Below, one piece after another: positions 26,708 to 54,581 of a stretch of 64,000 nt of DNA. The stretch's first letter is position 1, and each line of letters opens with the position of its first letter. The stretch spans positions 4,509,617-4,573,616 of the forward strand of contig NZ_CP031123.2 in NCBI RefSeq assembly GCF_002843235.3. The letters are read 5' to 3'. The translations under genes were made by a program, and so were the position numbers. This DNA comes from Providencia huaxiensis. Lineage in GTDB: Bacteria; Pseudomonadota; Gammaproteobacteria; Enterobacterales; Enterobacteriaceae. The notes below the pieces were generated by a model. It made no database searches and was not told the DNA's origin. It was given only the letters and a program-made list of their open reading frames with translations.

Positions 26708-26860
26708 CGTGAGCCATCGGGGGACTGTTTTGACTGTTCCTCGGTGCTTTGCTTTTCAATGATGTTCAAGTGTGATTTCGGAAAGTGTGTACAAACTTGA
26801 GTACAAATTCCGTTTTATGGGCCTCTGGCGAAAATTCCATGACATAAACCGTCTTGTATC
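26708..26860. repeat. ICE left-end-like segment, copy A (next to dmlA)
   Basis: From about 26742 the bases TTTGCTTTTCAATGATGTTC, then a GTGTACAAACTTGAGTACAA stretch and a later ATTCCATGACA, recur in the same order at 29643-29760 with scattered differences. Weaker similarity extends left to about 26708. The second copy directly follows the prfC fragment at an ICE end, so copy A is read as a diverged left end of an SXT/R391-like element. The left boundary with chromosomal DNA is uncertain. Confidence 0.55.
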
Positions 26861-27035
26861 CCTTGTTATTCATAGGATTGAGCTAAAAATTTCCATCTTC
26901 GGATGGGACTTGTTCTTTTATCACTTGATCTAGTAACTGTACAAAGCAAACACACCAAAACATTGCAGATATTACTCGCGGACTGGACAAAGTAAGTTTT
27001 CTAATTTTCGGTAGATTTGGTTTAAAAGTTGGAAA

Positions 27036-27174: not shown

Positions 27175-28011
27175 ATGGTTAGTCATTCCCAGCGCGAAAC
27201 GGTGAAAGAGTCTTATAAGCAGTCTCTTAAAACTCTTTTACCTTATGGTATGTTAGCAACAAAAAAATGGCTTGCAGAGCAGGGCTTGAGTGCTCATGCG
27301 TTGGATAACGCTGTCAAAACCGATACGTTATTGCCGCTAGCTATAGGTGTTTACAGCCAGTATTCTCGAACAGTCACTTGGGAAGGCGTAGTCGCTTCTA
27401 TGCAGCGTATGATGAATAAAAGTGCAGATGAACAACTTCCGCCTGTCGTGGTCGGTGGGTTGTCAGCGCTTTCCATATCTGGTTTGTCGCAATATTTGTC
27501 ATTAGGAAGTACACCTCATATTCATTTATATGCAACGGGAAAACTGCCTTCCTGGCTTGAGAGACTGTCATTGCCAATTAAGTTCGAAGGACATAGTACA
27601 AGTAAACTTTGGCCTGAGAGCTTATTCAAAGATAGAGCATTCGTTAAAGAGCATGAATGGGGAGAGCAATTACCACCTGTATATTTTTCATGTCCTGAAA
27701 AAGCCATATTGGAAGTGTTGGTGGATTTGCCTGAAAGTGTGTCATTTGAACATGCCGATGAGCTAATGCAGGGGTTGGTGAATTTATCTCCAAGAAAACT
27801 AGATTCGCTCTTAAAAGCGTGTAAAAGCGTAAAGGTCAAACGATTGTTCTTTTGGCTTGCAAAACGCCAAGCTTATCCTTGGTTTGATAAGTTAAATGTA
27901 GAAAATTACGATTTAGGCTCAGGTAAGCGTGTTGTTGCTAAAGGTGGAAAATTGGATACAGAGTATCTAATAACAGTACCTCAGCATATGGTGTTGGCAA
28001 GTAAAGGATAA
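27175..28011 (+). CDS. mosA: MosA/AbiEi-type antitoxin
   Basis: This 278-residue protein has an N-terminal winged-helix-like region (MLATKKWLAEQGLSAHALDN then TLLPLAIGVYSQYSRTVTWE), the layout of AbiEi antitoxins and MosA of SXT. It is followed by a mixed C-terminal domain thought to neutralise the toxin and contribute to repression. It lies 8 bases before a nucleotidyltransferase toxin gene in the usual antitoxin-first order. Two related palindromes upstream fit autoregulation. In SXT the MosAT pair stabilises the element after excision; here it would do the same or act as abortive-infection defence. The symbol rests on remembered similarity and could be AbiEi-like rather than true MosA. Confidence 0.7.
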   Translation: MVSHSQRETVKESYKQSLKTLLPYGMLATKKWLAEQGLSAHALDNAVKTDTLLPLAIGVYSQYSRTVTWEGVVASMQRMMNKSADEQLPPVVVGGLSALSISGLSQYLSLGSTPHIHLYATGKLPSWLERLSLPIKFEGHSTSKLWPESLFKDRAFVKEHEWGEQLPPVYFSCPEKAILEVLVDLPESVSFEHADELMQGLVNLSPRKLDSLLKACKSVKVKRLFFWLAKRQAYPWFDKLNVENYDLGSGKRVVAKGGKLDTEYLITVPQHMVLASKG

Positions 28012-28019
28012 GTTCAGCG

Positions 28020-28934
28020 ATGGATAGAAACAGTATTTATTACAAGCAAGTACAGCTTTTGATACAGGTATTGCCTTTCGTTGCCAAACAGAAATGCTTT
28101 GCGCTCAAAGGTGGTACAGCAATCAATTTATTTGTCAGAGACTTTCCTCGTTTATCGGTCGATATTGATTTGGTGTATCTGCCAATGAAGAGCCGTGATG
28201 ATGCCTTGCAGGAAATCTGTGATGCACTTGATGCTATTAGCGTGGATTTAAAAATAACATTTAAAGATGTCGAGCTAACGGAAGCTTATCGGTCAAAACG
28301 CGATGCTCTAAGGTTGATCATTGCTCGCAACGGTGTGCAGATCAAAGTCGAGTTATCACCTGTATTGCGCGGTACTGTTTATGAACCAAAGCTGATGGAA
28401 GTTTGCGCAGTCGTAGAAGACGAATTTGGTTATGTTGAAATACCTGTTGTTGACTTAGCTGATCTTTATGCTGGAAAGATATGTGCAGCATTGGATAGAC
28501 AGCATCCAAGAGACTTATTTGATGTGAAGTTGCTTTTGGAGAATGAAGGGCTAACGGATGAAATTCGTAAAGCATTACTCGTTTATTTATCAAGCCATAA
28601 TCGGCCAATGGCAGAATTGCTCAGTCCGCAATTTAAGGATATTACTGCCACCTATGAAGGTGAGTTTACTAACATGGCCGAGACGGATGTCCCGTTGGTG
28701 GAACTGGAAACCGTAAGGGGACGCCTAGTAGACCTCATTCACCAAGGACTGACCGATGTTGAAAAGGCTTTTTTGCTATCCTTTAAAAATCGAGAACCTG
28801 ACTGGTCTTTACTCGGCCTGAATGGAGTCTGTGAGCTTCCTGCCATCAAATGGAAACAAATCAATTTAGCAAAAATGCCGAATGACAAACATACACAAGC
28901 CTTAGAAAAGCTGAAAGATGTTCTCAGTATGTGA
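28020..28934 (+). CDS. mosT: MosT/AbiEii-type nucleotidyltransferase toxin
   Basis: This 304-residue protein has the AbiEii/COG2253 nucleotidyltransferase core: FALKGGTAINL (G31-G32-T33) followed by SVDIDLVY with the catalytic D48-x-D50. A third acidic motif is IKVELSP, and the Lys/Asp-rich DLYAGKICAALDRQHPRDLF motif follows. AbiEii toxins transfer nucleotides to cellular RNA targets and stop growth. It is the second gene of the bicistronic toxin-antitoxin unit. All catalytic residues appear intact, so the toxin is probably functional. Confidence 0.8.
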   Translation: MDRNSIYYKQVQLLIQVLPFVAKQKCFALKGGTAINLFVRDFPRLSVDIDLVYLPMKSRDDALQEICDALDAISVDLKITFKDVELTEAYRSKRDALRLIIARNGVQIKVELSPVLRGTVYEPKLMEVCAVVEDEFGYVEIPVVDLADLYAGKICAALDRQHPRDLFDVKLLLENEGLTDEIRKALLVYLSSHNRPMAELLSPQFKDITATYEGEFTNMAETDVPLVELETVRGRLVDLIHQGLTDVEKAFLLSFKNREPDWSLLGLNGVCELPAIKWKQINLAKMPNDKHTQALEKLKDVLSM

Positions 28935-29476
28935 TTTCTTAAAAATAGATGTTTATGCAGGGCTGATCTTCTGAACAAATCATGCACCTTTCTGACCATT
29001 AACAAGTGGTAAATCAGACGATGAAAAGTCAGATTTATTCAACCAAAACTAGATGTTTTGCTGCTTTGAGTTGTTGGCTCGTCACATTGGTATCATACAG
29101 CAGCTGATCAGCCAGATTTGCTCTGGTAAATCGACTAGATCTCGTTACACCATGCAATACCGAACAACGGCAATTGCAGCATTATTGGCGTAGTACGACA
29201 AGCTATCATCGATTTTTGGTAGCGAAGGAATTTGTGGTTTAGAGACAGTTGTTTATGGGCTGAAGAAGCAACGATTACAAACAGCTACAACTGAGTATTG
29301 GCGCACACTGAGAGTAAATGGTAACAGATTGGATAGCCTTTGATTGTTAATACCCCCAAGATCTGCGAAAATAACCGCCAATTTTGATTAACAAGACGGA
29401 TTTGCGACGCCAAGAGCCACATTGAGCCTCTTCGAATGCTTATACAAATCTGTATATAAACGAAAAGAACGGTTAA
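28935..29476. other. Gene-free stretch with ICE-derived remnants
   Basis: This region has no intact gene. At 28963-29023 it carries CTGATCTTCTGAACAAATCA and flanking bases that recur at 29911-29978 just upstream of xis, so it looks like a second copy of the xis leader. Further on is broken sequence with stops in all frames. The last ~70 bases presumably hold the promoter of the prfC 5' fragment. Confidence 0.5.
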
Positions 29477-29569: not shown

Positions 29570-29642
29570 AACCACCTTTCATTGCACACCACAATCACAT
29601 CTCTACGTACTGAATTTAAAGGCTTTTTGTCTTTTTCTCGTT

Positions 29643-29760
29643 TCTTTGCTTTTCAATGATGTTCAAGCGTAACCTCGGAAAATGTGTACAAACTTGAGTA
29701 CAAATCGCCATATTTACCGTTTTTAGCCAAATTCCATGACACAAACCTAGCTGTAGGCCT
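29643..29760. repeat. ICE left-end-like segment, copy B
   Basis: This is the direct repeat partner of the segment at 26708-26860 (shared TTTGCTTTTCAATGATGTTC and the following ~75 bases). It lies between the prfC/ICE junction and xis, the expected position of the element's left end and integrase arm sites. Confidence 0.6.
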
Positions 29761-30007
29761 TGTTCCTACTGGGTTTTAGCCAAAACTTGCCTATATTTTT
29801 TATGCCAAAAATCGAGAAATGATGGTAAGACGTTCGCGATTATCTCTAATTGTTTGCCGGTTGAGTTGGTTACCGGTTGCTTTCTTGCTGTCCTAAAAGT
29901 TCATTTGTATGGGCCTGATCTTCTGAACAAATCATGCATCTTTCTGACCATCAACAAGTGATGAATCAGGCGATGATAGCTTTACATTGATTTTCAGGAG
30001 AATGCAG

Positions 30008-30196
30008 ATGACAGCAGTAGCGCACCAAGTAACCCCTTTTCTAACGTCTTACGAAGTTATGGCTCGTTACCACATTAGCTATACGACGCTCTGGCGAAGA
30101 ATAAAAGATGGCAGCTTGCCGCAACCTCGTATCAACCGAAATACACGAAACAAGCTGTGGCACATTGAAGACTTGGAGGAGTATGAGAAGAATTAG
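30008..30196 (+). CDS. xis: Excisionase Xis (recombination directionality factor)
   Basis: The 62-residue protein starts at ATG 30008, with AGGAG 7 bases upstream; an ATG at 30002 is in frame but too close to that site. The sequence VMARYHISYTTLWRRIKDGS, followed by a positively charged linker and LWHIEDLEEYEKN, is an AlpA/MerR-like winged helix typical of excisionases. Its place near the left ICE end, with int further in, matches SXT/R391 elements. It would steer the integrase towards excision. A foreign ~2-kb gene separates it from int. Confidence 0.75.
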   Translation: MTAVAHQVTPFLTSYEVMARYHISYTTLWRRIKDGSLPQPRINRNTRNKLWHIEDLEEYEKN

Positions 30197-30341: not shown

Positions 30342-32360
30342 GTGACGACTCCTCAAGAACGGACAACAGGTATTACAAATGCGTCGATAAAAAAACGTTT
30401 CGGCTCAATTCCCGCTTGGAAGATGTTGAGTGAATATATCTGGAACGGTTTGGATGCTGGTGCATCAGATATTGATGTCATTATTAACACCTGTGATCTC
30501 GGCGGGGTGGAGTCAATAGAGATCCATGATAATGGTGAAGGAATTGACTTTCATAACCTAGACCGAAATTTTGATAATTGGGATGACTCATCCAAAAAAC
30601 AGGTTACCCAAAAAGGCAGTCAAGGCAGAGGGCGGTATTCATTTCATAAATATGCTGCAACAGCAACCTGGCTTACGAGAAGACAATCTGAGAATGCACG
30701 TATTACCATAGACTCGTCTCGTATTAAAACGTACAAAGTTGAGTTGATCGACGATAAAGAACAGCATAGTAGTATTCTTTCAAATGGAAGTGGGACATCA
30801 GTATTTCTTACGGGCATTACGAGTGAAAAATCTCAAAAAATCCCTAATATTGAAAATATCATGGAGGAGCTTTCAAATGAATTTGGTTGGAAGCTAATAG
30901 TTTTTTCTAACCTTAAAATATCAGTTAATAGAGTCCGAGTGACGCCTCCCCAACATAGGTTGTTTCAAGAGCTTATAGATGTTGATGGAAATATATTTAG
31001 TTCAAGTATCATTCAGTGGATAAAAAAACCATCTGGTGAAAAGTCATACAATTATTTTAGAGATTCAAAAGAACATCAGAAGTATAGAAATCTGACTGGT
31101 TTTAACTACAAAAACAATTTTTTCATAAGTGGATATATACAATCTGAGTGGTTCGATAATTTTCAAGATACCTCATCTCCAAATGCTGATCTCTTCATTA
31201 GTGAAAAGAGTGATGGGAATAAAGTTTTAGCTATGCTGCTAAAAGAACTGCGCAACAAAACAGCCGAGATTTATCAGGGGTTCCTTAGAGAAAGAGCTGT
31301 TCAGCTTGTCGATTCTTTCGAAGAAAAAGGATATTTTCCTGTTTACAATTGGGAGTCTGACGAAGATCGTTCCTTTAGAATTGCACATACGAAGAAATTA
31401 GTAACTAGTATCTGCGTTGCTGATCCAGCAGCTTTTAATGGGCTAAAGGCTAAGCAAACAAAAATTATAATCGGTTTGCTTGATAGGCTATCTACATCAA
31501 GTGAAAATGATAGTTTGATAGATATATTGGAAGGCGTTTTAGACTTAAATAAGGAGCAAATGGATGAATTTGCATCTCAAATAAGTAAATCTAAACTTGA
31601 TTATATAATTAGCACGATTGGACACATTCATAAGCGAGATCTAGTCGTACAGAAAATGAAGTACCTTTTTAAAGAGCACGCTAAAGAAGTTCTAGAAACA
31701 CCAGACTTACAAGGTATTATTGAGGCTAATACATGGTTGTTTGGCCCTCAGTACACAACTATAGGTGCCGAAGAGGATGACTTTTCTAATACAGCTAGAA
31801 ATCTTCGGAATTCAGATATTGAAATATTGGATGGGGACGATATCAGTACCAGTGATCTTATTGAAGGCGCTACCATAGAGGGGGCAAAAGGCCAAGTAGA
31901 TTTGTTTCTTGCACGCAAAATGGTCACAATTGATCATTCTACACAAGAAGAATTTATTAAATGTACGATCATTGAAATAAAAAGACCAAGTGTAGCATTG
32001 AATAAGAAACATTTAGCTCAAGCTGAACGTTATGCTGAGGTACTTGATAAGCATCCTGCCTTTAATGATGAGAGAATGAGATTTGATGTTGTTCTTGTTG
32101 GAACTAAAATCTCCCAGAATGATACTCAAATTACAAGGCGGTTGAAAGACCTTGCTGGTAAGGGCGGCGCGGGCCTTGTTTCCGGGGCGGATGAAAGAAT
32201 TCGAGTATACGTTAAAAGTTGGTCTACAATTTTTAATGATTTCGAGGTGACTCATAGTGCTTTATTACAAAAGCTAAAAATAAAGAGAAGCGAGCTAGAG
32301 TATAAATCTAAGCAAACCCTTGTGGATGAATTGCAAATACCTCTCTCTGAGGCGTCGTGA
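30342..32360 (+). CDS. GHKL ATPase fused to a PD-(D/E)XK-like nuclease domain, candidate defence protein
   Basis: The product is ~672 residues from GTG 30342. Residues ~28-160 carry all GHKL (Hsp90/MutL-type) ATP-binding motifs: SEYIWNGLDAGAS (N box), DNGEGID (G1), GSQGRGRYSFHKY (G2) and GSGTSVFLTG (G3). Residues ~505-600 carry GQVDLFLARK, then CTIIEIKRPS and HLAQAERY: the D...ExK...Q pattern of a PD-(D/E)XK nuclease, similar to the Shedu/DUF4263 domain. The middle is helical and unassigned. It is inserted between xis and int of the ICE and is AT-rich like a recent acquisition. A nucleic-acid-cutting antiphage role is inferred; no experimentally named system is claimed. Confidence 0.75.
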   Translation: MTTPQERTTGITNASIKKRFGSIPAWKMLSEYIWNGLDAGASDIDVIINTCDLGGVESIEIHDNGEGIDFHNLDRNFDNWDDSSKKQVTQKGSQGRGRYSFHKYAATATWLTRRQSENARITIDSSRIKTYKVELIDDKEQHSSILSNGSGTSVFLTGITSEKSQKIPNIENIMEELSNEFGWKLIVFSNLKISVNRVRVTPPQHRLFQELIDVDGNIFSSSIIQWIKKPSGEKSYNYFRDSKEHQKYRNLTGFNYKNNFFISGYIQSEWFDNFQDTSSPNADLFISEKSDGNKVLAMLLKELRNKTAEIYQGFLRERAVQLVDSFEEKGYFPVYNWESDEDRSFRIAHTKKLVTSICVADPAAFNGLKAKQTKIIIGLLDRLSTSSENDSLIDILEGVLDLNKEQMDEFASQISKSKLDYIISTIGHIHKRDLVVQKMKYLFKEHAKEVLETPDLQGIIEANTWLFGPQYTTIGAEEDDFSNTARNLRNSDIEILDGDDISTSDLIEGATIEGAKGQVDLFLARKMVTIDHSTQEEFIKCTIIEIKRPSVALNKKHLAQAERYAEVLDKHPAFNDERMRFDVVLVGTKISQNDTQITRRLKDLAGKGGAGLVSGADERIRVYVKSWSTIFNDFEVTHSALLQKLKIKRSELEYKSKQTLVDELQIPLSEAS

Positions 32361-32489: not shown

Positions 32490-33731
32490 TTATTGTCCGA
32501 AACGCCAGTTGAATGGAAAGCCTGTCGGCTCGATGATGGTTTCTAGTTGTTGATACCAAACGTCGTAAGCATGACGCATTTCGTCCAGGTACTGATATTG
32601 GTTGTAGATAGCATCCAGCCCTTTTTTGCTGTGGCCAATCATCAACTCGGCAACTTCTTGCGTCGTGATGGCAGACATTCGCGTTCGCATCGTTCTGCGA
32701 AGATCATGCATAGACCAGTGTTCCATCTCAATACCAAGCGATCTGCGAGCCCAGATTTTCACATTGTTAGGAATAGTGGTATCAAAGCCATTTGTGGCAA
32801 GCTCTTCTTGTCCGTTCGCGGGAAACAAGTAAGTTGATTTGCTCATCTGCATCGCCAGTTCAATCAGCTCAATAGCTGGCTTAATCAATGGCCGCATGAT
32901 CGGCGCTCCAATTTTCTCACCTTGTTTGCGGATCTCTATGGGCACTGTCCACATTGCAGATTGCAAGTCAAAGTGATGCTTTTCAGCTTGAATGAGTTCG
33001 CCCTTGCGCCCTCCCAATAAGAGAAGCAGTTTTATGTAGATGCGATTCTTCTCAGTGATTTTTGACTCATGCAAATAGCGCCAAAGTATCCTGATCTCGT
33101 TGTCATTTAGCACCCGAGTTCGTTTTCCTTTTTTACCGCCAACCTTTTTTGCTGTGATCCCAGCGGCAGCGTTAATTTCCAAAATTTGTTCATCAATCAG
33201 CCAGTCATAGAACTTATGCAGTACAGACACTAGGCGCTCTGTGTTTGACGGAGACGATTCCGAAACCTCACGAAGACAGTTTCGCAAGGACAATTCAGTG
33301 ATGTCAGTTAATGGATACTTGCCAAGTCGGGGCAGCAAATATATTTCACTGCTGCGTTTTTGGTAGTGCCACGTTTTCTCCTTTAGCCCTTGCTTACCGG
33401 CAGAGTCTATCCAGTCTCGAAAAATCGATTCGAAGCTTTGATTAGCAGAATACTTAGCCCGTTCCTGCTGTAGGTAAAGCTTGGGGTTTCGGCCTTGATC
33501 AAGTACTGCCCTTAACCTATCCAGCTCATTCCTGGCTTCAGCCAGCTTCATAAGGGGGTAAGTACCTATGTCTACCCGCTGTTGCTTGCCATCGAACCGA
33601 TAACGAAACTGAAAAACAATTTTGCCCTTGGGCGATACCCGAGCACTTAGCCCATCTCGGTCGGCTTTTACTACGGTTTCTTTTGCTTCTTTATTTAACC
33701 TGGCATCGAGCCAGCTAACTGATAACGCCAT
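32490..33731 (-). CDS. int: SXT/R391-family tyrosine integrase
   Basis: This 413-residue protein has an N-terminal DUF4102-type arm-binding domain (LNKEAKETVVKADRDGLSAR...IGTYPLMKLAEAR), a core-binding domain, and a catalytic domain with R (LLLLGGRKGEL), H-x-x-R (MHDLRRTMRTRM), H (LMIGHSKKG) and the nucleophile in DAIYNQYQY. The length equals that remembered for SXT Int. It integrates and excises the element at prfC, with Xis. It starts two bases after the end of the preceding small gene, so it is expressed from the partition operon. Confidence 0.88.
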   Translation of the reverse strand: MALSVSWLDARLNKEAKETVVKADRDGLSARVSPKGKIVFQFRYRFDGKQQRVDIGTYPLMKLAEARNELDRLRAVLDQGRNPKLYLQQERAKYSANQSFESIFRDWIDSAGKQGLKEKTWHYQKRSSEIYLLPRLGKYPLTDITELSLRNCLREVSESSPSNTERLVSVLHKFYDWLIDEQILEINAAAGITAKKVGGKKGKRTRVLNDNEIRILWRYLHESKITEKNRIYIKLLLLLGGRKGELIQAEKHHFDLQSAMWTVPIEIRKQGEKIGAPIMRPLIKPAIELIELAMQMSKSTYLFPANGQEELATNGFDTTIPNNVKIWARRSLGIEMEHWSMHDLRRTMRTRMSAITTQEVAELMIGHSKKGLDAIYNQYQYLDEMRHAYDVWYQQLETIIEPTGFPFNWRFGQ

Positions 33732-41908: not shown

Positions 41909-42727
41909 GGCACTGTTGCAAATAGTCGGTGGTGATAAACTTATCATCCCCTTTTGCTGATGGAGCTGCACATGAACCCATTCAAAGGCCGGCATTTTCA
42001 GCGTGACATCATTCTGTGGGCCGTACGCTGGTACTGCAAATACGGCATCAGTTACCGTGAGCTGCAGGAGATGCTGGCTGAACGCGGAGTGAATGTCGAT
42101 CACTCCACGATTTACCGCTGGGTTCAGCGTTATGCGCCTGAAATGGAAAAACGGCTGCGCTGGTACTGGCGTAACCCTTCCGATCTTTGCCCGTGGCACA
42201 TGGATGAAACCTACGTGAAGGTCAATGGCCGCTGGGCGTATCTGTACCGGGCCGTCGACAGCCGGGGCCGCACTGTCGATTTTATCTCTCCTCCCGTCGT
42301 AACAGCAAAGCTGCATACCGGTTTCTGGGTAAAATCCTCAACAACGTGAAGAAGTGGCAGATCCCGCGATTCATCAACACGGATAAAGCGCCCGCCTATG
42401 GTCGCGCGCTTGCTCTGCTCAAACGCGAAGGCCGGTGCCCGTCTGACGTTGAACACCGACAGATTAAGTACCGGAACAACGTGATTGAATGCGATCATGG
42501 CAAACTGAAACGGATAATCGGCGCCACGCTGGGATTTAAATCCATGAAGACGGCTTACGCCACCATCAAAGGTATTGAGGTGATGCGTGCACTACGCAAA
42601 GGCCAGGCCTCAGCATTTTATTATGGTGATCCCCTGGGCGAAATGCGCCTGGTAAGCAGAGTTTTTGAAATGTAAGGCCTTTGAATAAGACAAAAGGCTG
42701 CCTCATCGCTAACTTTGCAACAGTGCC
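41909..42727 (+). mobile_element. IS26: IS26
   Basis: Ends GGCACTGTTGCAAA and TTTGCAACAGTGCC are the IS26 terminal repeats. The total is 819 bp, one base short of the standard 820. The missing base is in the transposase gene. Confidence 0.95.
41972..42675 (+). pseudogene. tnpA: IS26 transposase gene with a 1-base deletion
   Basis: The frame starts [20 protein letters not shown] and is normal through DSRGRTVDF. Then a T-run of four (42280-42283), where IS26 has five, shifts it into ISPPVVTAKL and a stop at 42349. The correct frame resumes and ends ...[12 protein letters not shown]. The DDE transposase is split and should be inactive unless the missing T is a sequencing artefact. A similar homopolymer loss occurs in ISCR1 copy 1. 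Confidence 0.85.
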
Positions 42728-43409
42728 TTCTACGGCACGTTTGAAGGCGCGCTGAAAGGTCTGGTCATACATGTGATGGCGACGCACGACACCGCTCCGT
42801 GGATCGGTCGAATGCGTGTGCTGCGCAAAAACCCAGAACCACGGCCAGGAATGCCCGGCGCGCGGATACTTCCGCTCAAGGGCGTCGGGAAGCGCAACGC
42901 CGCTGCGGCCCTCGGCCTGGTCCTTCAGCCACCATGCCCGTGCACGCGACAGCTGCTCGCGCAGGCTGGGTGCCAAGCTCTCGGGTAACATCAAGGCCCG
43001 ATCCTTGGAGCCCTTGCCCTCCCGCACGATGATCGTGCCGTGATCGAAATCCAGATCCTTGACCCGCAGTTGCAAACCCTCACTGATCCGCATGCCCGTT
43101 CCATACAGAAGCTGGGCGAACAAACGATGCTCGCCTTCCAGAAAACCGAGGATGCGAACCACTTCATCCGGGGTCAGCACCACCGGCAAGCGCCGCGACG
43201 GCCGAGGTCTTCCGATCTCCTGAAGCCAGGGCAGATCCGTGCACAGCACCTTGCCGTAGAAGAACAGCAAGGCCGCCAATGCCTGACGATGCGTGGAGAC
43301 CGAAACCTTGCGCTCGTTCGCCAGCCAGGACAGAAATGCCTCGACTTCGCTGCTGCCCAAGGTTGCCGGGTGACGCACACCGTGGAAACGGATGAAGGCA
43401 CGAACCCAG

Positions 43410-43438
43410 TTGACATAAGCCTGTTCGGTTCGTAAACT
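43410..43438 (+). promoter_or_regulatory. Integron cassette promoter PcS
   Basis: TTGACA (43410-43415), 17-base spacer, TAAACT (43433-43438), inside intI1: the strong Pc variant. The second promoter P2 region (TTGTTA ... TACAGT near 43530-43555) has a 14-base spacer, lacking the GGG insertion, and should be inactive. Confidence 0.9.
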
Positions 43439-43605
43439 GTAATGCAAGTAGCGTATGCGCTCACGCAACTGGTCCAGAACCTTGACCGAACGCAGCGGTG
43501 GTAACGGCGCAGTGGCGGTTTTCATGGCTTGTTATGACTGTTTTTTTGTACAGTCTATGCCTCGGGCATCCAAGCAGCAAGCGCGTTACGCCGTGGGTCG
43601 ATGTT

Positions 43606-43663
43606 TGATGTTATGGAGCAGCAACGATGTTACGCAGCAGGGCAGTCGCCCTAAAACAAAGTT
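43606..43663 (+). other. attI1 recombination site
   Basis: The sequence from TGATGTTATGGAGCAGCAAC to CCTAAAACAAAGTT is the attI1 site. The crossover is between G43661 and T43662, where the first cassette starts. Confidence 0.92.
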
Positions 43664-43683
43664 ATGTTCGCTGAGGAGAGTCA

Positions 43684-44082
43684 GTGTTACGAGGATTGAA
43701 TCATATTACTATTGCAGTAAGTGACCTTGAACGTTCCGTGGAGTTCTATACGCGTCTATTAGGAATGAAGGCACATGTCCGCTGGGATAGTGGGGCATAT
43801 CTGAGCTTGGAGGCTACTTGGATTTGCTTGTCTTGTGACGAAGTGCATCCGAGCCAAGATTACTGTCACATCGCGTTTGATGTTTCCGAAGAGAATTTCG
43901 AACCAGTTACTAAAAAGCTTCGCGAAGCACATGTCGTTGAATGGAAACAAAATAGAAGCGAAGGACTTTCTTTATACTTGCTCGATCCTGACGGCCATAA
44001 ATTGGAAATCCATAGCGGTAGCCTACAAAGTCGTTTGGAATCGTTGAAGTCTAAACCCTATCAAGGGTTAGTATGGCTATAA
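43684..44082 (+). CDS. fos: Fosfomycin-inactivating metalloenzyme, FosA-type (cassette 1)
   Basis: This 132-residue protein starts at GTG 43684 behind GAGGAGAG. It is a vicinal-oxygen-chelate protein with LNHITIAVSDLERSVEFYTR (metal His in the first module), QDYCHIAFDV (second His) and YLLDPDGHKLEIHSGSL (Glu metal ligand), and a C-terminal YQGLVW. FosA enzymes use Mn2+ and K+ to add glutathione to fosfomycin in the cytoplasm. As a gene cassette it resembles the FosC2/FosE/FosG group; I cannot assign the allele. It is the cassette nearest Pc and should be best expressed. Confidence 0.88.
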   Translation: MLRGLNHITIAVSDLERSVEFYTRLLGMKAHVRWDSGAYLSLEATWICLSCDEVHPSQDYCHIAFDVSEENFEPVTKKLREAHVVEWKQNRSEGLSLYLLDPDGHKLEIHSGSLQSRLESLKSKPYQGLVWL

Positions 44083-44086
44083 GCAA

Positions 44087-44161
44087 ACATAACAAGTCAA
44101 TTAACTACGCGCCTGCGGCGCCGGACGTGCTAGCGCACGCCGGTTATTTCGGGCGTTAGGC
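44087..44161 (+). other. attC of the fos cassette
   Basis: An imperfect inverted repeat after the fos stop ends in GCGTTAGGC, with the crossover between G44155 and T44156. Confidence 0.75.
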
Positions 44162-44179
44162 ATCACAAAGTACAGCATC

Positions 44180-44734
44180 GTGACCAACAGCAACGATTCC
44201 GTCACACTGCGCCTCATGACTGAGCATGACCTTGCGATGCTCTATGAGTGGCTAAATCGATCTCATATCGTCGAGTGGTGGGGCGGAGAAGAAGCACGCC
44301 CGACACTTGCTGACGTACAGGAACAGTACTTGCCAAGCGTTTTAGCGCAAGAGTCCGTCACTCCATACATTGCAATGCTGAATGGAGAGCCGATTGGGTA
44401 TGCCCAGTCGTACGTTGCTCTTGGAAGCGGGGACGGTTGGTGGGAAGAAGAAACCGATCCAGGAGTACGCGGAATAGACCAGTCACTGGCGAATGCATCA
44501 CAACTGGGCAAAGGCTTGGGAACCAAGCTGGTTCGAGCTCTGGTTGAGTTGCTGTTCAATGATCCCGAGGTCACCAAGATCCAAACGGACCCGTCGCCGA
44601 GCAACTTGCGAGCGATCCGATGCTACGAGAAAGCGGGGTTTGAGAGGCAAGGTACCGTAACCACCCCAGATGGTCCAGCCGTGTACATGGTTCAAACACG
44701 CCAGGCATTCGAGCGAACACGCAGTGTTGCCTAA
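44180..44734 (+). CDS. aacA4: Aminoglycoside 6'-N-acetyltransferase AAC(6')-Ib type (cassette 2)
   Basis: This 184-residue GNAT protein starts at GTG 44180, as usual in this cassette. It has [20 protein letters not shown] and [18 protein letters not shown] (acetyl-CoA binding). Both Trp residues are present and TTPDGPA has Asp, so the two changes of the ciprofloxacin-acetylating -cr variant are absent. At the position that usually reads IDQLL there is IDQSL. That Leu-to-Ser change (residue 119 in common numbering) is known to shift activity from amikacin towards gentamicin. The C-terminus reads RSVA rather than the usual RSDA. Confidence 0.95.
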
Positions 44735-44801
44735 CCCTTCCATCGAGGGGGACGTCCAAGGGCTGGCGCCCTTGGCCGCCCCTCATGTCAAACGTTATGC
44801 T
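44729..44801 (+). other. attC of the aacA4 cassette
   Basis: It begins GCCTAAC, overlapping the gene's end, contains AAGGGCTGGCGCCCTT, and ends at ACGTTATGC with the crossover after G44794. Confidence 0.8.
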
Positions 44802-44870
44802 CTGTGAGCCGGGTTATTGGCGAAGCGAACGTATGACGATTACAGCAATAAACGCAAAGGGTGAAAAAAA

Positions 44871-46091
44871 ATGACATGGAGAACGACCAAAACACTTTTA
44901 CAGCCTCAAAATCTGGACTTCAATGAGTTTGAGATTCTTACTTCCGTAATTGAGGGCGCCCGAATTGTCGGCATTGGCGAGGGCGCTCATTTTGTCGCGG
45001 AGTTTTCACTGGCTAGAGCAAGTCTTATCCGCTATTTGGTCGAAAGGCATGATTTTAATGCGATTGGTTTGGAATGTGGGGCGATTCAGGCATCCCGGTT
45101 ATCTGAATGGCTCAACTCAACAGCCGGTGCTCATGAACTTGAGCGATTTTCGGATACCCTGACCTTTTCTGTGTATGGCTCAGTGCTGATCTGGCTGAAA
45201 TCATATCTCCGCGAATCAGGAAGAAAACTGCAGTTAGTCGGAATCGACTTACCCAACACCCTGAACCCAAGGGACGACCTAGCGCAATTGGCCGAAATTA
45301 TCCAGCTCATCGATCACCTCATGAAACCGCACGTTGATATGCTGACTCACTTGTTGGCGTCCATTGATGGCCAGTCGGCGGTTATTTCATCGGCAAAATG
45401 GGGGGAGCTAGAAACGGCTCGGCAGGAGAAAGCTATCTCAGGGGTAACCAGATTGAAGCTCCGCTTGGCGTCGCTTGCCCCTGTCCTGAAAAAACACGTC
45501 AACAGCGATTTGTTCCGAAAAGCCTCTGATCGAATAGAGTCGATAGAGTATACGTTGGAAACCTTGCGTATAATGAAAACTTTCTTCGATGGTACCTCTC
45601 TTGAGGGAGATACTTCCGTACGTGACTCGTATATGGCGGGCGTAGTAGATGGAATGGTTCGAGCGAATCCGGATGTGAAGATAATTCTGCTGGCGCACAA
45701 CAATCATTTACAAAAAACCCCAGTCTCCTTTTCAGGCGAGCTTACGGCTGTTCCCATGGGGCAGCACCTCGCAGAGAGGGTGAATTACCGTGCGATTGCA
45801 TTCACCCATCTTGGACCCACCGTGCCGGAAATGCATTTCCCATCGCCCGACAGTCCTCTTGGATTCTCTGTTGTGACCACGCCTGCCGATGCAATCCGTG
45901 AGGATAGTATGGAACAGTATGTCATCGACGCCTGTGGTACGGAGAATTCATGTCTGACATTGACAGATGCCCCCATGGAAGCAAAGCGAATGCGGTCTCA
46001 AAGCGCCTCTGTAAAAACGAAATTGAGCGAGGCATTTGATGCCATCGTCTGTGTTCCAAGCGCCGGCAAGGACAGCCTAGTTGCCCTATAG
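44871..46091 (+). CDS. ereA: Erythromycin esterase type I, EreA (cassette 3)
   Basis: This 406-residue protein has VGIGEGAHFVAEFSLARASL with the catalytic His and Glu of erythromycin esterases, FNAIGLECGA, and IILLAHNNHLQK. These are the signature blocks of the Ere family. The enzyme hydrolyses the macrolactone ring of 14-membered macrolides in the cytoplasm. The length is that of EreA2. It is carried as a gene cassette with its own ribosome-binding site (AAAGGG) before the ATG. All motifs look intact. Confidence 0.93.
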   Translation: MTWRTTKTLLQPQNLDFNEFEILTSVIEGARIVGIGEGAHFVAEFSLARASLIRYLVERHDFNAIGLECGAIQASRLSEWLNSTAGAHELERFSDTLTFSVYGSVLIWLKSYLRESGRKLQLVGIDLPNTLNPRDDLAQLAEIIQLIDHLMKPHVDMLTHLLASIDGQSAVISSAKWGELETARQEKAISGVTRLKLRLASLAPVLKKHVNSDLFRKASDRIESIEYTLETLRIMKTFFDGTSLEGDTSVRDSYMAGVVDGMVRANPDVKIILLAHNNHLQKTPVSFSGELTAVPMGQHLAERVNYRAIAFTHLGPTVPEMHFPSPDSPLGFSVVTTPADAIREDSMEQYVIDACGTENSCLTLTDAPMEAKRMRSQSASVKTKLSEAFDAIVCVPSAGKDSLVAL

Positions 46092-46115
46092 GAAACCGGA
46101 AATGAAAATGAGGGA

Positions 46116-46173
46116 GCATAACCTGCCAATCCACCGGACGGTTTTCAACCGCCGGTGATCAGCGCGATTGGGC
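46116..46173 (+). other. Short attC of the ereA cassette with an atypical right core
   Basis: It runs from GCATAAC to GATTGGGC. The usual GTTRRRY core at the crossover is replaced by GATTGGGC, so the border between cassettes 3 and 4 is not a clean core site. Confidence 0.55.
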
Positions 46174-46188
46174 GTCAAGGAAAACTTA

Positions 46189-47016
46189 ATGGCAATCCGA
46201 ATCTTCGCAATACTTTTCTCCACTTTTGTTTTTGGCACGTTCGCGCATGCACAAGAAGGCATGCGCGAACGTTCTGACTGGCGGAAGTTTTTCAGCGAAT
46301 TTCAAGCCAAAGGCACGATAGTTGTGGCAGACGAACGCCAAACAGATCGTGTCATATTGGTTTTTGATCAGGTGCGGTCAGAGAAACGCTACTCGCCGGC
46401 CTCGACATTCAAGATTCCACATACACTTTTTGCACTTGACGCAGGCGCTGCACGTGATGAGTTTCAAGTTTTCCGATGGGACGGCATCAAAAGAAGCTTT
46501 GCAGCTCACAACCAAGACCAAGACTTGCGATCAGCAATGCGGAATTCTACTGTCTGGATTTATGAGCTATTTGCAAAAGAGATCGGTGAAGACAAGGCTC
46601 GACGCTATTTGAAGCAAATCGACTATGGCAACGCCGATCCTTCGACAAGTAATGGCGATTACTGGATAGATGGCAATCTTGCTATCGCGGCACAAGAACA
46701 GATTGCATTTCTCAGGAAGCTCTATCATAACGAGTTGCCCTTTCGGGTAGAACATCAGCGCTTGGTCAAGGACCTCATGATTGTGGAAGCCGGTCGCAAC
46801 TGGATACTGCGCGCAAAGACGGGCTGGGAAGGCCGCATGGGTTGGTGGGTAGGATGGGTTGAGTGGCCGACTGGCCCCGTATTCTTCGCACTGAATATTG
46901 ATACGCCAAACAGGATGGATGACCTTTTCAAAAGGGAGGCAATAGTGCGGGCAATCCTTCGCTCTATCGAAGCGTTGCCGCCCAACCCGGCAGTCAACTC
47001 GGACGCAGCGCGATAA
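46189..47016 (+). CDS. blaOXA: Class D beta-lactamase, OXA-2 group (cassette 4)
   Basis: Start ATG 46189; a start at 46168 would add residues before the signal peptide. The 275-residue protein has a signal peptide ending AHA, the active site S72-T-F-K75, S120-T-V and K210-T-G212, all intact. It closely matches the OXA-2 group; the N-terminus (FSTFVFGTFAHAQEGMRERS) is nearer to what I recall of OXA-21 than of OXA-2, but the allele is not assigned. It is a periplasmic serine enzyme hydrolysing penicillins and some cephalosporins. Its 3' end lies inside its attC. Confidence 0.92.
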   Translation: MAIRIFAILFSTFVFGTFAHAQEGMRERSDWRKFFSEFQAKGTIVVADERQTDRVILVFDQVRSEKRYSPASTFKIPHTLFALDAGAARDEFQVFRWDGIKRSFAAHNQDQDLRSAMRNSTVWIYELFAKEIGEDKARRYLKQIDYGNADPSTSNGDYWIDGNLAIAAQEQIAFLRKLYHNELPFRVEHQRLVKDLMIVEAGRNWILRAKTGWEGRMGWWVGWVEWPTGPVFFALNIDTPNRMDDLFKREAIVRAILRSIEALPPNPAVNSDAAR

Positions 47017-47049
47017 AGCCGCGCAGCGCCGGTTACTTCTACGTTAACC
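46980..47049 (+). other. attC of the blaOXA cassette
   Basis: It begins GCCCAAC within the gene and ends TACGTTAACC, with the crossover after G47043. Confidence 0.75.
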
Positions 47050-47063
47050 TCTGAGGAAGAATT

Positions 47064-47537
47064 GTGAAACTATCACTAATGGTAGCTATATCGAAGAATG
47101 GAGTTATCGGGAATGGCCCTGATATTCCATGGAGTGCCAAAGGTGAACAGCTCCTGTTTAAAGCTATTACCTATAACCAATGGCTGTTGGTTGGACGCAA
47201 GACTTTTGAATCAATGGGAGCATTACCCAACCGAAAGTATGCGGTCGTAACACGTTCAAGTTTTACATCTGACAATGAGAACGTATTGATCTTTCCATCA
47301 ATTAAAGATGCTTTAACCAACCTAAAGAAAATAACGGATCATGTCATTGTTTCAGGTGGTGGGGAGATATACAAAAGCCTGATCGATCAAGTAGATACAC
47401 TACATATATCTACAATAGACATCGAGCCGGAAGGTGATGTTTACTTTCCTGAAATCCCCAGCAATTTTAGGCCAGTTTTTACCCAAGACTTCGCCTCTAA
47501 CATAAATTATAGTTACCAAATCTGGAAAAAGGGTTAA
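47064..47537 (+). CDS. dfrA1: Trimethoprim-resistant dihydrofolate reductase DfrA1 (cassette 5)
   Basis: This 157-residue protein starts at GTG 47064 behind [47 protein letters not shown] and [14 protein letters not shown] are DfrA1 landmarks. It provides NADPH-dependent reduction of dihydrofolate that trimethoprim inhibits poorly. The sequence agrees with DfrA1 as I remember it, except for IWKKG instead of IWQKG at the end. As the cassette furthest from PcS it should be the least expressed. Confidence 0.95.
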
Positions 47538-47626
47538 CAAGTGGCAGCAACGGATTCGCAAACCTGTCACGCCTTTTGTACCAAAAGCCGCGCCAGGTTT
47601 GCGATCCGCTGTGCCAGGCGTTAGAT
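47533..47626 (+). other. attC of the dfrA1 cassette and start of the 3' conserved segment
   Basis: A ~95-base inverted-repeat site ends GGCGTTAGATGC; the crossover after G47620 marks the beginning of the 3'-CS. Confidence 0.85.
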
Positions 47627-47728
47627 GCACTAAGCACATAATTGCTCACAGCCAAACTATCAGGTCAAGTCTGCTTTTATTATTTTTAAGCGTGCATAAT
47701 AAGCCCTACACAAATTGGGAGATATATC

Positions 47729-48076
47729 ATGAAAGGCTGGCTTTTTCTTGTTATCGCAATAGTTGGCGAAGTAATCGCAACATCCGCATTAAAATCTAGC
47801 GAGGGCTTTACTAAGCTTGCCCCTTCCGCCGTTGTCATAATCGGTTATGGCATCGCATTTTATTTTCTTTCTCTGGTTCTGAAATCCATCCCTGTCGGTG
47901 TTGCTTATGCAGTCTGGTCGGGACTCGGCGTCGTCATAATTACAGCCATTGCCTGGTTGCTTCATGGGCAAAAGCTTGATGCGTGGGGCTTTGTAGGTAT
48001 GGGGCTCATAATTGCTGCCTTTTTGCTCGCCCGATCCCCATCGTGGAAGTCGCTGCGGAGGCCGACGCCATGGTGA
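47729..48076 (+). CDS. qacEdelta1: QacEdelta1, truncated small multidrug exporter
   Basis: This 115-residue SMR-family protein starts [20 protein letters not shown] (Glu14, the conserved proton/substrate-coupling residue). The fourth helix is replaced by [13 protein letters not shown], the well-known delta1 fusion made when sul1 was joined. Its efflux of quaternary ammonium compounds is weak. It overlaps the start of sul1 by 7 bases and carries the promoter of sul1 upstream. Confidence 0.96.
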
Positions 48077-48909
48077 CGGTGTTCGGCATTCTGAATCTCA
48101 CCGAGGACTCCTTCTTCGATGAGAGCCGGCGGCTAGACCCCGCCGGCGCTGTCACCGCGGCGATCGAAATGCTGCGAGTCGGATCAGACGTCGTGGATGT
48201 CGGACCGGCCGCCAGCCATCCGGACGCGAGGCCTGTATCGCCGGCCGATGAGATCAGACGTATTGCGCCGCTCTTAGACGCCCTGTCCGATCAGATGCAC
48301 CGTGTTTCAATCGACAGCTTCCAACCGGAAACCCAGCGCTATGCGCTCAAGCGCGGCGTGGGCTACCTGAACGATATCCAAGGATTTCCTGACCCTGCGC
48401 TCTATCCCGATATTGCTGAGGCGGACTGCAGGCTGGTGGTTATGCACTCAGCGCAGCGGGATGGCATCGCCACCCGCACCGGTCACCTTCGACCCGAAGA
48501 CGCGCTCGACGAGATTGTGCGGTTCTTCGAGGCGCGGGTTTCCGCCTTGCGACGGAGCGGGGTCGCTGCCGACCGGCTCATCCTCGATCCGGGGATGGGA
48601 TTTTTCTTGAGCCCCGCACCGGAAACATCGCTGCACGTGCTGTCGAACCTTCAAAAGCTGAAGTCGGCGTTGGGGCTTCCGCTATTGGTCTCGGTGTCGC
48701 GGAAATCCTTCTTGGGCGCCACCGTTGGCCTTCCTGTAAAGGATCTGGGTCCAGCGAGCCTTGCGGCGGAACTTCACGCGATCGGCAATGGCGCTGACTA
48801 CGTCCGCACCCACGCGCCTGGAGATCTGCGAAGCGCAATCACCTTCTCGGAAACCCTCGCGAAATTTCGCAGTCGCGACGCCAGAGACCGAGGGTTAGAT
48901 CATGCCTAG
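48070..48909 (+). CDS. sul1: Sulfonamide-resistant dihydropteroate synthase Sul1
   Basis: Start ATG 48070 gives the standard 279 residues beginning [20 protein letters not shown]; the frame is open from 47983, but that is qacEdelta1 DNA. Signature blocks of dihydropteroate synthases are present: [16 protein letters not shown] [31 protein letters not shown] and [10 protein letters not shown]. It condenses pterin pyrophosphate with p-aminobenzoate while rejecting sulfonamides. The 3'-CS continues only ~23 bases past the stop before ISCR1-associated DNA. Confidence 0.97.
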
Positions 48910-48931
48910 CATTCACCTTCCGGCCGCCCGC

Positions 48932-49142
48932 TAAATATCTCCTTTTGGGTTGTTAATAAAACATCCAATAAGTTGACTGTGCGTGAAAAAGAAAGTTTTG
49001 TGTGATGGCGTTGAAGATCGCACCGTTAAGCTCTTATGTGGGATGGTGCAGAGCTCGACGACTACCGATAAAACGCAACCGCCGCAAACAGACAAGAAAA
49101 AGCCCCAACTGATAACAGTTGGGGCTTCAGTATTGTGATTGG
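48932..49142. other. ISCR1-linked spacer after the broken 3'-CS
   Basis: The 3'-CS stops at CCGCCCGCT (48932) and is followed by ~210 bases not present before ISCR1 copy 2. It contains a strong hairpin, AAGCCCCAACTG / CAGTTGGGGCTT at 49100-49127, preceded by an A-run, i.e. a terminator for minus-strand transcription. No gene is credible in it. Confidence 0.6.
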
Positions 49143-49313
49143 TGGAGCAATAGCACCCTGAACCCAAAACCTTCTCGCTCAACCGGTAGTGGCTGATAAC
49201 AACTCGTGAGGGCTATTGCGGGTTAAGCATTTAGCGATGTCTAGGGCCAGACTGGACGTCTGAACGCAAGCCGCTGATACTGTACATAACCACAGTATCA
49301 GCGGAGGATACCC

Positions 49314-50854
49314 ATGTCGCTGGCAAGGAACGCCACGGCGAGTCAATCGCCCACTCAAACAAACGGTTACGAACGCCACCAACCCGACCAGACGCTGCTC
49401 TACCAGCTGGTTGAGCAGCACTACCCAGCCTTCAAAGCCTCACTCGAAGCCCAAGGTCAACACCTGCCTCGCTACATCCAACAAGAATTCAACGACCTCC
49501 TCCAATGTGGCCGTCTGGAGTATGGTTTCATGCGGGTTCGCTGCGAGGATTGTCATCACGAGCGTCTGGTCGCCTTCAGCTGTAAACGACGCGGCTTTTG
49601 CCCCAGCTGCGGTGCCCGCCGGATGGCCGAGAGTGCGGCGCTGCTGATAGACGAAGTCTTCCCCAAGGAGCCCATTCGCCAGTGGGTGCTCAGCTTTCCT
49701 TTCCAGCTACGCTTTTTGCTGGCTCGCCATCCCCAGCTGATGGGCCAGGTCTTGAGTATCGTCTATCGTACACTCTCAACTCATCTGATCAAAAAGCCGG
49801 TTACACCAAAGCCTCTGCACAAACTGGCTCAGTGACTCTTATCCAACGCTTTGGCTCCGCGCTAAATCTCAATGTCCACTACCACATGCTGTTTCTCGAT
49901 GGTGTCTATGCCGAAGATGACTATGGCAAGCAACGCTTCCATCGTGTCAAGGCACCCACTTACGATGAGCTGAATACGCTCGCTCACACCCTCAGCCATC
50001 GCATCGCTCGCTGCATGGAAAAGCGTGGGATTTTGGAGCGTGATGCCGAGAATACGTGGTTGACACTGGAAGAGGGCGAAGACGATACGCTGACTCAATT
50101 ACATGGTGCTTCGGTTACGTATCGCATTGCCGTCGGCCCCCAGCAAGGGCGCAAAGTCTTCACCCTGCAAACCTTGCCAGGGCGTGAGGATAAAGCCGAC
50201 TCAAGCAGTCGAGTAGCCAACCATGCTGGTTTCTCGCTACACGCCGGTGTGATGGCCGAAGCGCATCAGCGGGATAAGCTTGAGCGCTTGTGTCGCTACA
50301 TTAGTCGGCCAGCGGTTTCAGAAAAACGTCTGGCATTAACCGCCAATGGGCAGGTGCGTTACGAGCTCAAAACTCCGTACCGCAATGGCACCACCCATGT
50401 GATCTTCGAGCCGCTGGACTTCATCGCCAAACTCGCTGCGTTGGTACCTAAGCCGCGAGTCAACCTCACACGCTTCCACGGCGTCTTTGCACCGAACAGC
50501 AAACACCGAGTTCAAGTAACACCCGCCAAGCGGGGCAAGAAGCCCGACAAATCGGAAGGTCTCGATACTAACTGGCGTGACAAGAGTCCTGCAGAGCGCC
50601 ACCGCGCCATGACCTGGATGCAACGCCTCAAGCGAGTCTTCAATATTGATATTGAAGTCTGCGAACACTGCGGCGGTCACGTCAAAGTGATTGCCAGCAT
50701 CGAAGATCCGAAGGTCATTGAGCAGATTCTCAAGCATCTGAAACAGAAAACAGCCAAGGCGAATGCCGCCAAGCAGCGTGAGCTGCCACCAGAACGAGCG
50801 CCGCCACTGACTCCCAGCCTGTTCGATCCATCACAGAGTCGTCTCTTTGACTGA
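49314..50854 (+). pseudogene. rcr1: ISCR1 transposase rcr1, frameshifted
   Basis: The first frame (49314-49835) carries the N-terminal zinc-finger region (CGRLEYGFMRVRCEDC ... FSCKRRGFCPSCGA). At the A-run 49791-49795 (five A; copy 2 has six) it shifts and stops. The second frame, open from 49598, carries the rest, including NVHYHMLFLDGVY (HUH-type histidines) and the Tyr-containing C-terminal part through SLFDPSQSRLFD. The rolling-circle transposase is therefore split here; copy 2 could supply it in trans. Confidence 0.9.
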
Positions 50855-51064
50855 CGACCCCAAATCCAACACTGCTCAACACTGCCAACTTTTAAACGGG
50901 GCGGTGGGGCAGTTTGTATCTCTCGAGCTATCAGGCTAGAGATTTTACCGCCAAATCGAACCTTATTAGAGCGGTTTAGGCTGGACCGGCAGTTAAAATT
51001 GGGGCTTGAGCGGTAAACGAGTGAGGGAATTTCAGGTAAGATACTTCGGATGAGGAGCAAAAAG

Positions 51065-51086
51065 GTGGTTTATACTTCCTATACCC
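51065..51086 (+). other. oriIS of ISCR1 copy 1
   Basis: GTGGTTTATACTTCCTATAC plus CC: the origin end of ISCR1, present once here and three times at the end of copy 2. Foreign DNA starts at 51087. Confidence 0.85.
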
Positions 51087-52566
51087 TTCCCAACTAGCCG
51101 AAAAATCAAAACAAATAGATCCTAATGACATATCAATAAGGTTTCTAGAACACTCAGACATAATTCAATTCCTAGATACCTTAGACGTTAATTTAGATCT
51201 ATTCTATCGACTTTTATGGAGACATATCCTTATAGTTGAGTTACTTAAACTCAGATATAACATCAAGAATGAAACAGACAATCGAAACTTCTTTGACAGT
51301 ATTAGTGATTATTTCAGAAGAGATACTGTAAAGAAAAAAGCCATTGAATACTTTAGAGAATGGGGTGATAGATTTTGGCTTGACACTGATGAACACTTAA
51401 AAGTCATCACTCAAAAGCTTGAAAATGATACCAAAGCAAACTTAGGCGCAAAATATACAGGCTTATCCTTCAGCGTTAGTGGAGCCGAAAAACTAACTGA
51501 TGAACAAAAAATAGAGATAAAACAAAGGGCTAGTCAGGTTGTGAGTGGTCTGCAAATTCAGAAACTGAACGAAATGCTAGATTTAATCTCAGAACACTCA
51601 TTTCATGACCCCCAACAAAAGTTTTATATCGTAATTGATCAATTGGATGAAAGTTGGGCTAACACGATTACAAGATGTAAGTTTATTCGAGCACTAATTG
51701 AGGAAATAAAAACTTTTCGAAAAGTTGAAAATATTAAGATTATCGCGGCTATGCGGAAGGATTTATTAGATCTCGTTTTCGACAAAACGCGGGGAGCTGG
51801 ATTTCAAGAAGAAAAGTATGAATCCTATATTTTACCCATACAGTGGACACGCGATGAGTTGACCGATTTGATAGAAAAGCGCGTCAAAGAAGTATTCAAA
51901 CGGCAATACACCAATGAAGATGTCACATTCAAAGATATATTCCCTTCAGCTACTAAAGGAGGAGGTCAACTAGCCATTGATTTTATTATGGAGCGTACGC
52001 TCTTTCGCCCAAGAGATATTCTTCAATTTGTAAATGAGTGTTTCAAAGTCGCATATGGGCGTGAGCGAATCTCATGGAGAACAATTTATGCTGCTGAAGC
52101 ACAATACTCAGAGAAAAGACTTAAGTCCCTCAAAGAAGAGTGGGGAGAAGTATACCCATCATTTGACGAAACTGTAGAAATACTAAGAGGTTTACAGACG
52201 TCTTTCAAACGTTCAGATCTTTCTGAATCTCGTCTAGAACATATAATTACAGATTTATATGACCAGAAAACAGATGACCCATGTGTTTGTGCCGTAAAGG
52301 ACTATTTCGATACAACGGGAGAAGTCAAACAAGCAGAAATACTAAATAAGATTCTAATTTGTTTATATCGTGTTGGAGCCATTGGAATAAAAATCAGTGC
52401 GCTCAGTACATTTATGTGGTCTTTCTTTGATCAAAGTACGGTGAGTAGGGGGGAAGTGAGGCGTGCTTCTCAAATCAAGGTACATAAAATGCTTTATCGT
52501 TCCTTAGATATACAGGTAACTGGCTCAGAAAGGTTTGAAGTAATAGACACAGAAGATTTACCTTAG
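51087..52566 (+). pseudogene. P-loop ATPase (Sll1717-like), 5' truncated by ISCR1
   Basis: An open frame runs without a start from the ISCR1 end (SQLAEKSKQIDPNDISIRFL...) through MSGLQIQKL at 51541 to the stop at 52566: ~490 residues. FYIVIDQLDESW is a Walker-B-like strand with Asp and Glu, and IKIIAAMRKDLLDL a sensor-like strand, as in STAND-type P-loop ATPases of the Sll1717 family. The Walker A loop (GxxxxGKT/S) is not present, so it was probably cut off. The 5' part was lost at the ISCR1 boundary and the product should be non-functional. DNA is AT-rich, unlike ISCR1. Confidence 0.6.
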
Positions 52567-53158
52567 AGTGTTAGGTTTTTTTCCTGATCTGAAACAACAG
52601 TTTTAGAGTAATAGATCTAGTTCACTTTCATCCAGTAACGAGTTGGCTTTGCACCCCACAAACAGGGAAAAATTCATGGATGAATTTTTAGGTTTTCTGC
52701 GTCGGGAACGCCTAAAACCGTCCCGGCCAGCGAGCGCGAAGCAAAAGACACTTTCTGGATACTCTTTGTGCCTGCAAAGAGTATCTGGTGCGCTTTAACC
52801 AAAGCCACGTGGTTCGTTAAACCCAAAGCGCAACAAACCACATCACATTAAACCATCCCCTCCAGACTGACGGCAAAAAACAAACAGTGGACAAGCACCT
52901 CACCATGGAGATCTGGTGCGCAGCTTATCCTCCAAACATCAAACTCGAATTCCGTCTGTATCCGCCTGTATTGAACGAAACTTTTTTTCAGGTAATTGCA
53001 TTTCCGTTTTCATTTGTTCATGCCTCTAATCGCCAGTTTGGTGCCTTAAAATGGCCATTTTGGGGTGTTTTAAATTGATGTTTTTAAAGGGTTTGTTTTT
53101 CTTGAGAACGGATGTCCCACATGGTAGTCTGCGCACTCCACAGGCTTAGGGGAAAAAC
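52567..53158. other. Non-coding leader with strong hairpins upstream of qnr
   Basis: No credible gene in 590 bases. Perfect inverted repeats: AAAAATTCAT/ATGAATTTTT at 52668-52689 and GATACTCTTTG/CAAAGAGTATC at 52758-52785. Weaker ones: GGTTTT/AAAACC near 52691-52719 and CGGGA/TCCCG. The last 100 bases are AT-rich and presumably hold the qnr promoter; AGGGG precedes the qnr ATG. Confidence 0.55.
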
Positions 53159-54429: not shown

Positions 54430-54581
54430 TTCAAAGTATTAAAACGATTCGAGGTTTGCGCTCTAAAGCATTTTTTTCCTTAGTGTTTTAACGTAAATAC
54501 TCAGTTATGGGGGAGGGGGCTCGCCTCTGAATTTAAAGTACTTTTTCCTATGATAACTAGCCGTAAATGGTCATATCTCTA

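Follow-up and report, generated by a model that had tools for sequence, protein, structure and literature searches.

We analyzed a 64,000-nucleotide stretch of the Providencia huaxiensis genome (contig NZ_CP031123.2, positions 4,509,617 to 4,573,616; hereafter the window), which carries an integrative and conjugative element (ICE) of the SXT/R391 type. Between the genes for its excisionase (xis) and integrase (int) lies a single gene, an intact open reading frame (ORF) of 672 amino acids at 30342–32360 on the forward strand, encoding a GHKL ATPase joined to a Shedu-like PD-(D/E)XK nuclease domain. The gene very probably serves in phage defence, and it spreads with the ICE. The locus is organized as follows.

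29987–30196, forward: xis (excisionase), left border of the cargo; weak HTH_17 match, PHROG excisionase at 4.2e-7, 98.5% to ICE R997
30342–32360, forward: GHKL ATPase/PD-(D/E)XK nuclease, single-gene cargo, 672 residues, GTG start and TGA stop (homologues and alignment)
30342–30956, forward: GHKL ATPase domain, residues ~1–205
30432–30446, forward: N box, E31–N35 (EYIWN), by motif and alignment
30528–30548, forward: DNGEGID, residues 63–69 (D63–D69), by motif
30615–30641, forward: GSQGRGRYS, residues 92–100 (G92–S100), by motif
30786–30803, forward: GSGTSV, residues 149–154 (G149–V154), by motif
30957–31295, forward: S5/transducer-like middle domain, residues ~206–318, from loose fold matches to TRAP1 and MORC2
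31296–31676, forward: helical linker, residues ~319–445, from the AlphaFold2 model (low confidence at 386–402 and 406–424)
31677–32357, forward: Shedu-like PD-(D/E)XK nuclease domain, residues ~446–672, by hhalign and fold matches
31893–31907, forward: QVDLF with D520, by motif and alignment
31974–31982, forward: E545-x-K547 of IEIK, by motif and alignment
32019–32033, forward: QAERY (QxxxY), residues 560–564 (Q560–Y564), by motif and alignment
32490–33731, reverse: int, integrase of the SXT/R391 type, convergent with both xis and the cargo; Pfam matches to Phage_integrase and an arm domain, 99.3% to that of R997

The N-terminal part is matched by the HATPase_c_3 profile (E 4.1e-14), and the TRAP1 and MORC2 fold matches reach residue 318, loosely, with a root-mean-square deviation of 6.4–8.0 Å over 233–280 residues. 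Among 7999 scored candidates, 153 homologues were found at E <= 1e-3; in a 40-member alignment (A2), residues N35, D63, G65, G67, D520, E545, K547, Q560 and Y564 are fully conserved, and E31 almost fully. Comparison with the Marinomonas allele, a single pair, gave a dN/dS of 0.134 (26 synonymous and 13 non-synonymous differences), indicating purifying selection; this value and the 153 homologues identify a real gene rather than a chance reading frame. A promoter scan showed no excess (8 sites versus a mean of 7.8 in shuffles), and terminator-like sites numbered 3 versus 1.2. The intact ORF and its conserved residues bear out the earlier note on this DNA, made from the letters alone, which had described a fusion of ~672 residues with a GHKL motif set and C-terminal nuclease motifs.

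The best sequence matches among solved structures are MutL/PMS1 ATPase domains, and some relatives carry the database label 'DNA mismatch repair protein'. A MutL-like role in repair or ICE maintenance is nevertheless highly improbable, as these matches are confined to the ATPase part, the C-terminal folds are those of PD-(D/E)XK nucleases with no MutL endonuclease in the best 50 fold matches, and the gene is absent from 16 of the 22 ICEs examined. MutL models themselves score no higher than 27.4 bits, where the cut-off is 180, and cover only residues 31–77; together with the C-terminal fold, these scores led us to reject housekeeping mismatch repair.

The C-terminus proved to be nuclease-like by profile and by predicted fold, in agreement with what had been read from its motifs. 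When profiles of the window family and of Shedu C-termini were compared with hhalign, the probability was 95.7% (E 1.1e-8), with lower values for controls. The Shedu set comprised 19 proteins; five PF14082 places (L074–L076, L078 and L147) were left out, being short or interrupted by stops, and a sixth, L077, served instead as founder of a second GHKL-nuclease family. In the fold comparison, performed with VIA-align on two predicted models, the Shedu structures 8ti9, 8ps4 and 8ps5 were the best matches of the C-terminal model. The C-terminal profile (A6) found no match among PDB sequences up to E 10.

Kinship extends to the whole protein. The window-family profile is colinear over 482 columns with that of the second GHKL-nuclease family (97.9%, E 3.4e-13), and the C-terminal parts alone give 85.4% (5.9e-6). 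SduA_C is matched at E <= 1 by 11 of 25 members of this second family (best 3.6e-7). Its founder, L077, is of the BbrUII/HgiDII type according to NCBIfam NF050001 (797 bits against a cut-off of 550), and is a GHKL protein that may bridge GHKL-Shedu proteins and the type II restriction enzymes that bear names. In a tree, the window gene groups with P0002–P0005; deeper joins lie on long branches and are unsure.

The earlier note knew of no named system with this architecture; three already have it, namely VcSduA, paraMORC3 and BbrUII/HgiDII (NF050001), and the kind of system is therefore known, not new. VcSduA is a type I-D Shedu of Vibrio cholerae with an N-terminal GHKL ATPase and a DUF4263 nuclease; it protects E. 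coli against Drexlerviridae and V. cholerae against phage X29, its activity requires both active sites, being abolished by E27A and by K557A, and its growth curves were taken by the authors as direct restriction (PMC12137116). The window protein resembles it in being one protein acting as a single gene, in its GHKL motifs I–IV and C-terminal PD-(D/E)XK domain, and in being mobile-island cargo, although VcSduA lies on island VSP-II and the window gene between xis and int. Judging from motif order rather than a direct alignment, E31 presumably corresponds to E27 of VcSduA, and K547 to K557. VcSduA-like proteins were formerly named paraMORC3 (PMC12137116), a computational family with a C-terminal RE-fold domain (Iyer, Abhiman and Aravind 2008, PMC2292703). 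Like paraMORC3, which combines GHKL, S5 and a C-terminal RE-fold endonuclease with E-D-ExK residues and is sporadic and laterally mobile, the window protein has a GHKL N-terminus with intact ATP motifs and a C-terminal RE-fold with D and ExK, where D520, E545 and K547 are present in 40 of 40 members and the fold agrees; the likeness is to the published description. Classical Shedu (SduA; PDB 8ti9, 8ps4) shares the nuclease domain by profile and, less sharply, by fold, but carries other N-terminal domains (PMC12409362), and its 425-residue reference (L072, matching 8ps4 at 1.1e-92) has no GHKL half. We sought the VcSduA sequence in Vibrio genomes by its E27/K557 numbering, and no candidate fits both positions; PF14082 occurs in 18 of 227 Vibrio genomes, with a longest frame of 542 residues.

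Several observations weigh against a Shedu assignment. Restriction enzymes (6qnz, 7.5; 5lhc, 7.3) lie within 1 Z of Shedu in the fold comparison and are thus tied with it, the model of the C-terminus is of moderate confidence (pLDDT 73), and likeness to HSDR_N_2 is 59.0% for the window C-terminus versus 15.8% for Shedu. Pfam SduA_C/DUF4263, with which VcSduA is reported, does not match the window protein at E <= 1 and is absent from the best 25 of the 36 families listed for the 40 members of A2. PADLOC leaves the window protein unnamed; of 15 relatives, no more than 4 are matched by its SduA models (best 4.2e-4), and its type II restriction-enzyme models fit better (up to 4 of 15, best 1.3e-7). 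The linking family is a weak SduA_C case, since L077 scores 24.5 bits, below the 27-bit cut-off (29.2 with neighbouring pieces). Finally, the spacing from glutamate to lysine by residue numbers is 516 here and 530 in VcSduA. The name Shedu is provisional for this protein: it escapes the Pfam signature and passes the deeper profile and fold tests.

The colinearity with a family that contains NF050001 members and the PADLOC restriction-enzyme matches raise another explanation, in which the protein would be a sequence-specific restriction enzyme of the BbrUII/HgiDII kind, with its protecting methyltransferase encoded elsewhere or lost. BbrUII/HgiDII proteins have the same GHKL ATPase and C-terminal nuclease in ~660 residues, M.HgiDII is a 5mC methyltransferase recognizing GTCGAC (PMC5867850), and a DNA methyltransferase is annotated ~1.5 kb from a distant Deinococcus relative. 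The window protein, in contrast, is very remote in sequence, has no NF050001 match at E <= 1, and its relatives lack a recurrent methyltransferase companion. Among 123 immediate neighbours of 64 relatives (L008–L071, the gene-bearing ICE loci L004–L007 being left out), no methyltransferase family out of 96 was matched by two or more at E <= 1e-5, and a motif scan, run without a positive control, found 3 methyltransferase-like ORFs among the 545 of at least 200 residues at the same loci. The two C5-class methyltransferases of the window genome, the one class searched, are on a contig other than that of the ICE. Moreover, identical copies exist in four named genera, all of which would need the same methylation. 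We consider this explanation improbable; a partner methylase is not supported by the neighbours, the motif scan or the C5 search.

Among the same neighbours, PADLOC reverse-transcriptase defence models matched 3 of 123 and PtuA 2 of 123 (best 25 of 124 families); enrichment of defence genes is not claimed, since there was no control set. Class I tRNA-synthetase models match up to 6 of the 123, a hint of chromosomal insertion spots beside tRNA-synthetase genes.

Placement between xis and int, as first proposed, is confirmed: both genes were identified, and homology to R997 ends at their stop codons. In R997 (NZ_KY433363), where the site is empty, the annotated genes are 16 bp apart; ParM/actin-like, MobI and UmuC-like genes beyond int are common to R997 and other ICEs. 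The earlier view that this recombination module rarely carries cargo does not seem to hold, the site being filled in 13 of 22 distinct ICEs, a count that is biased because most gene-bearing ICEs were found by searching for the gene itself. The survey is small and partly biased; the G490 and Psychromonas ICEs, both on 85,175-bp contigs, were counted as one element. The interval is of the empty type (27–32 bp between tblastn ends) in 9 of the 22 (R997, four order-level genomes, E. coli ET734 and XH1815, and P. mirabilis H110 and H63), spans 544–553 bp in 7 (E. coli cq9, U90, HNSQ2209 and GZ2408C, and three further genomes, one with a partial int) and reaches ~2300 bp with the GHKL-nuclease gene in 6 (the window, E. 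coli WP4-S18-ESBL-08, Providencia rettgeri, Alteromonas antoniana, Marinomonas phaeophyticola and Psychromonas arctica).

Searches with int matched 7 of the 5426 genomes of E. coli (the gene in 1, ~550 bp in 4, an empty site in 2), 9 of 295 genomes at order level (the gene in 2, including the window, ~550 bp in 2, an empty site in 4 and a match of just 42 bases in 1), 4 of 369 at class level (the window, a partial one with ~550 bp and two short matches) and 3 of 72,556 plasmid records, all empty. The ~550-bp sequence is a second, unrelated filler of the interval in other SXT/R391 ICEs (positions 5470–6000 in L104; also L096, L098 and L105–L107), and in E. coli records it carries a short annotated antisense ORF (5522–5734 in L104) with no PHROG match.

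Over its 2019 nucleotides, the gene does not vary among the copies from E. coli, Providencia, Alteromonas and Psychromonas, and the Marinomonas copy differs from them at 39. With Escherichia, Providencia, Alteromonas, Psychromonas and Marinomonas, the named genera that have an ICE-borne copy number at least five, and the spread is recent. At 37%, the G+C content of the gene is below that of int (46%) and of the ParM-like gene (49%). The closest cluster of proteins, at 99% identity, represents 280 sequences. Family members at E <= 1e-20 were found in 12 of 227 Vibrio species; the distribution looks patchy and mobile, unlike that of the housekeeping genes against which the earlier note had weighed its proposal. 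Among phage records, 2 of 50,697 hold distant relatives (21–27% identity), as do 32 of 72,556 plasmid records; the match to phrog_6203 covers almost the whole length.

A gene that adjoins xis and int and spreads with a conjugative element could instead, or in addition, attack incoming plasmids, rival ICEs or conjugating DNA, a role in competition or DNA entry with which the DNA-end sensing of Shedu-type proteins (PMC12409362) would be compatible. We hold this to be quite unlikely, as 64 of 68 loci have no SXT-type xis or int in the fetched flanks (3 of those 64 have a remote integrase, at 23–27% identity); because of this and of the phage and plasmid records, the gene is not tied to the xis/int module. 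Neighbourhood and occurrence on phages and plasmids fit a lone mobile defence gene.

We thus favour, with a probability of about 0.78, a single-protein anti-phage nuclease without a methylase partner, acting like VcSduA and of the GHKL-Shedu (paraMORC3) architecture. The anti-phage role proposed earlier for this ICE cargo is kept as the most likely one. Only for VcSduA does published work show an anti-phage activity dependent on both the glutamate of the ATPase and the lysine of the nuclease (PMC12137116); for the window protein, we infer a similar course. The GHKL and S5-like module would dimerize upon ATP binding and close around DNA in the manner of the clamps formed by MORC, MutL and Hsp90-type enzymes. 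Phage DNA would be recognized by free ends or unusual topology, by analogy with Shedu, and recognition would license the C-terminal PD-(D/E)XK domains to cleave it, so that the host is spared. SXT/R391 ICEs carry the gene from host to host as an insert in their xis–int interval. A bolder version, which we regard as a long shot, has a separate, methylase-less GHKL-nuclease branch lying beyond current defence profiles, whose Hsp90/MORC-like clamp would sense DNA topology or ends and fire the Shedu nuclease; its place between xis and int would tie expression to ICE excision, arming the new host and excluding rival phages and elements during movement.

Two further regions of the window were recorded. 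An AbiEi/AbiEii pair at 27175–28934 lies outside the ICE-shared stretch, which begins near 29513; its flanks (26728–26894 and 28960–29024) are diverged versions of the left end of the ICE (88%, 73% and 91% when compared with parts of 29625–29791 and 29912–29976), as if left over from another left end of SXT/R391 type that had AbiE as its cargo. Positions 42566–58526 hold ORFs that we tentatively take, from their sequence, to be integron integrase-, dihydrofolate reductase-, OXA-, sulfonamide-resistance- and PER-like beta-lactamase-like; this is apparently a resistance region in the ICE.

The analysis marks the xis–int interval as a cargo site of SXT/R391 ICEs, for which a limited literature search found no earlier description. 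Since neither Pfam SduA_C nor PADLOC names the window protein, surveys built on them would undercount the GHKL-nuclease branch. The GHKL-Shedu design, for which VcSduA provided published validation in 2025, is here carried by a conjugative element of broad host range.
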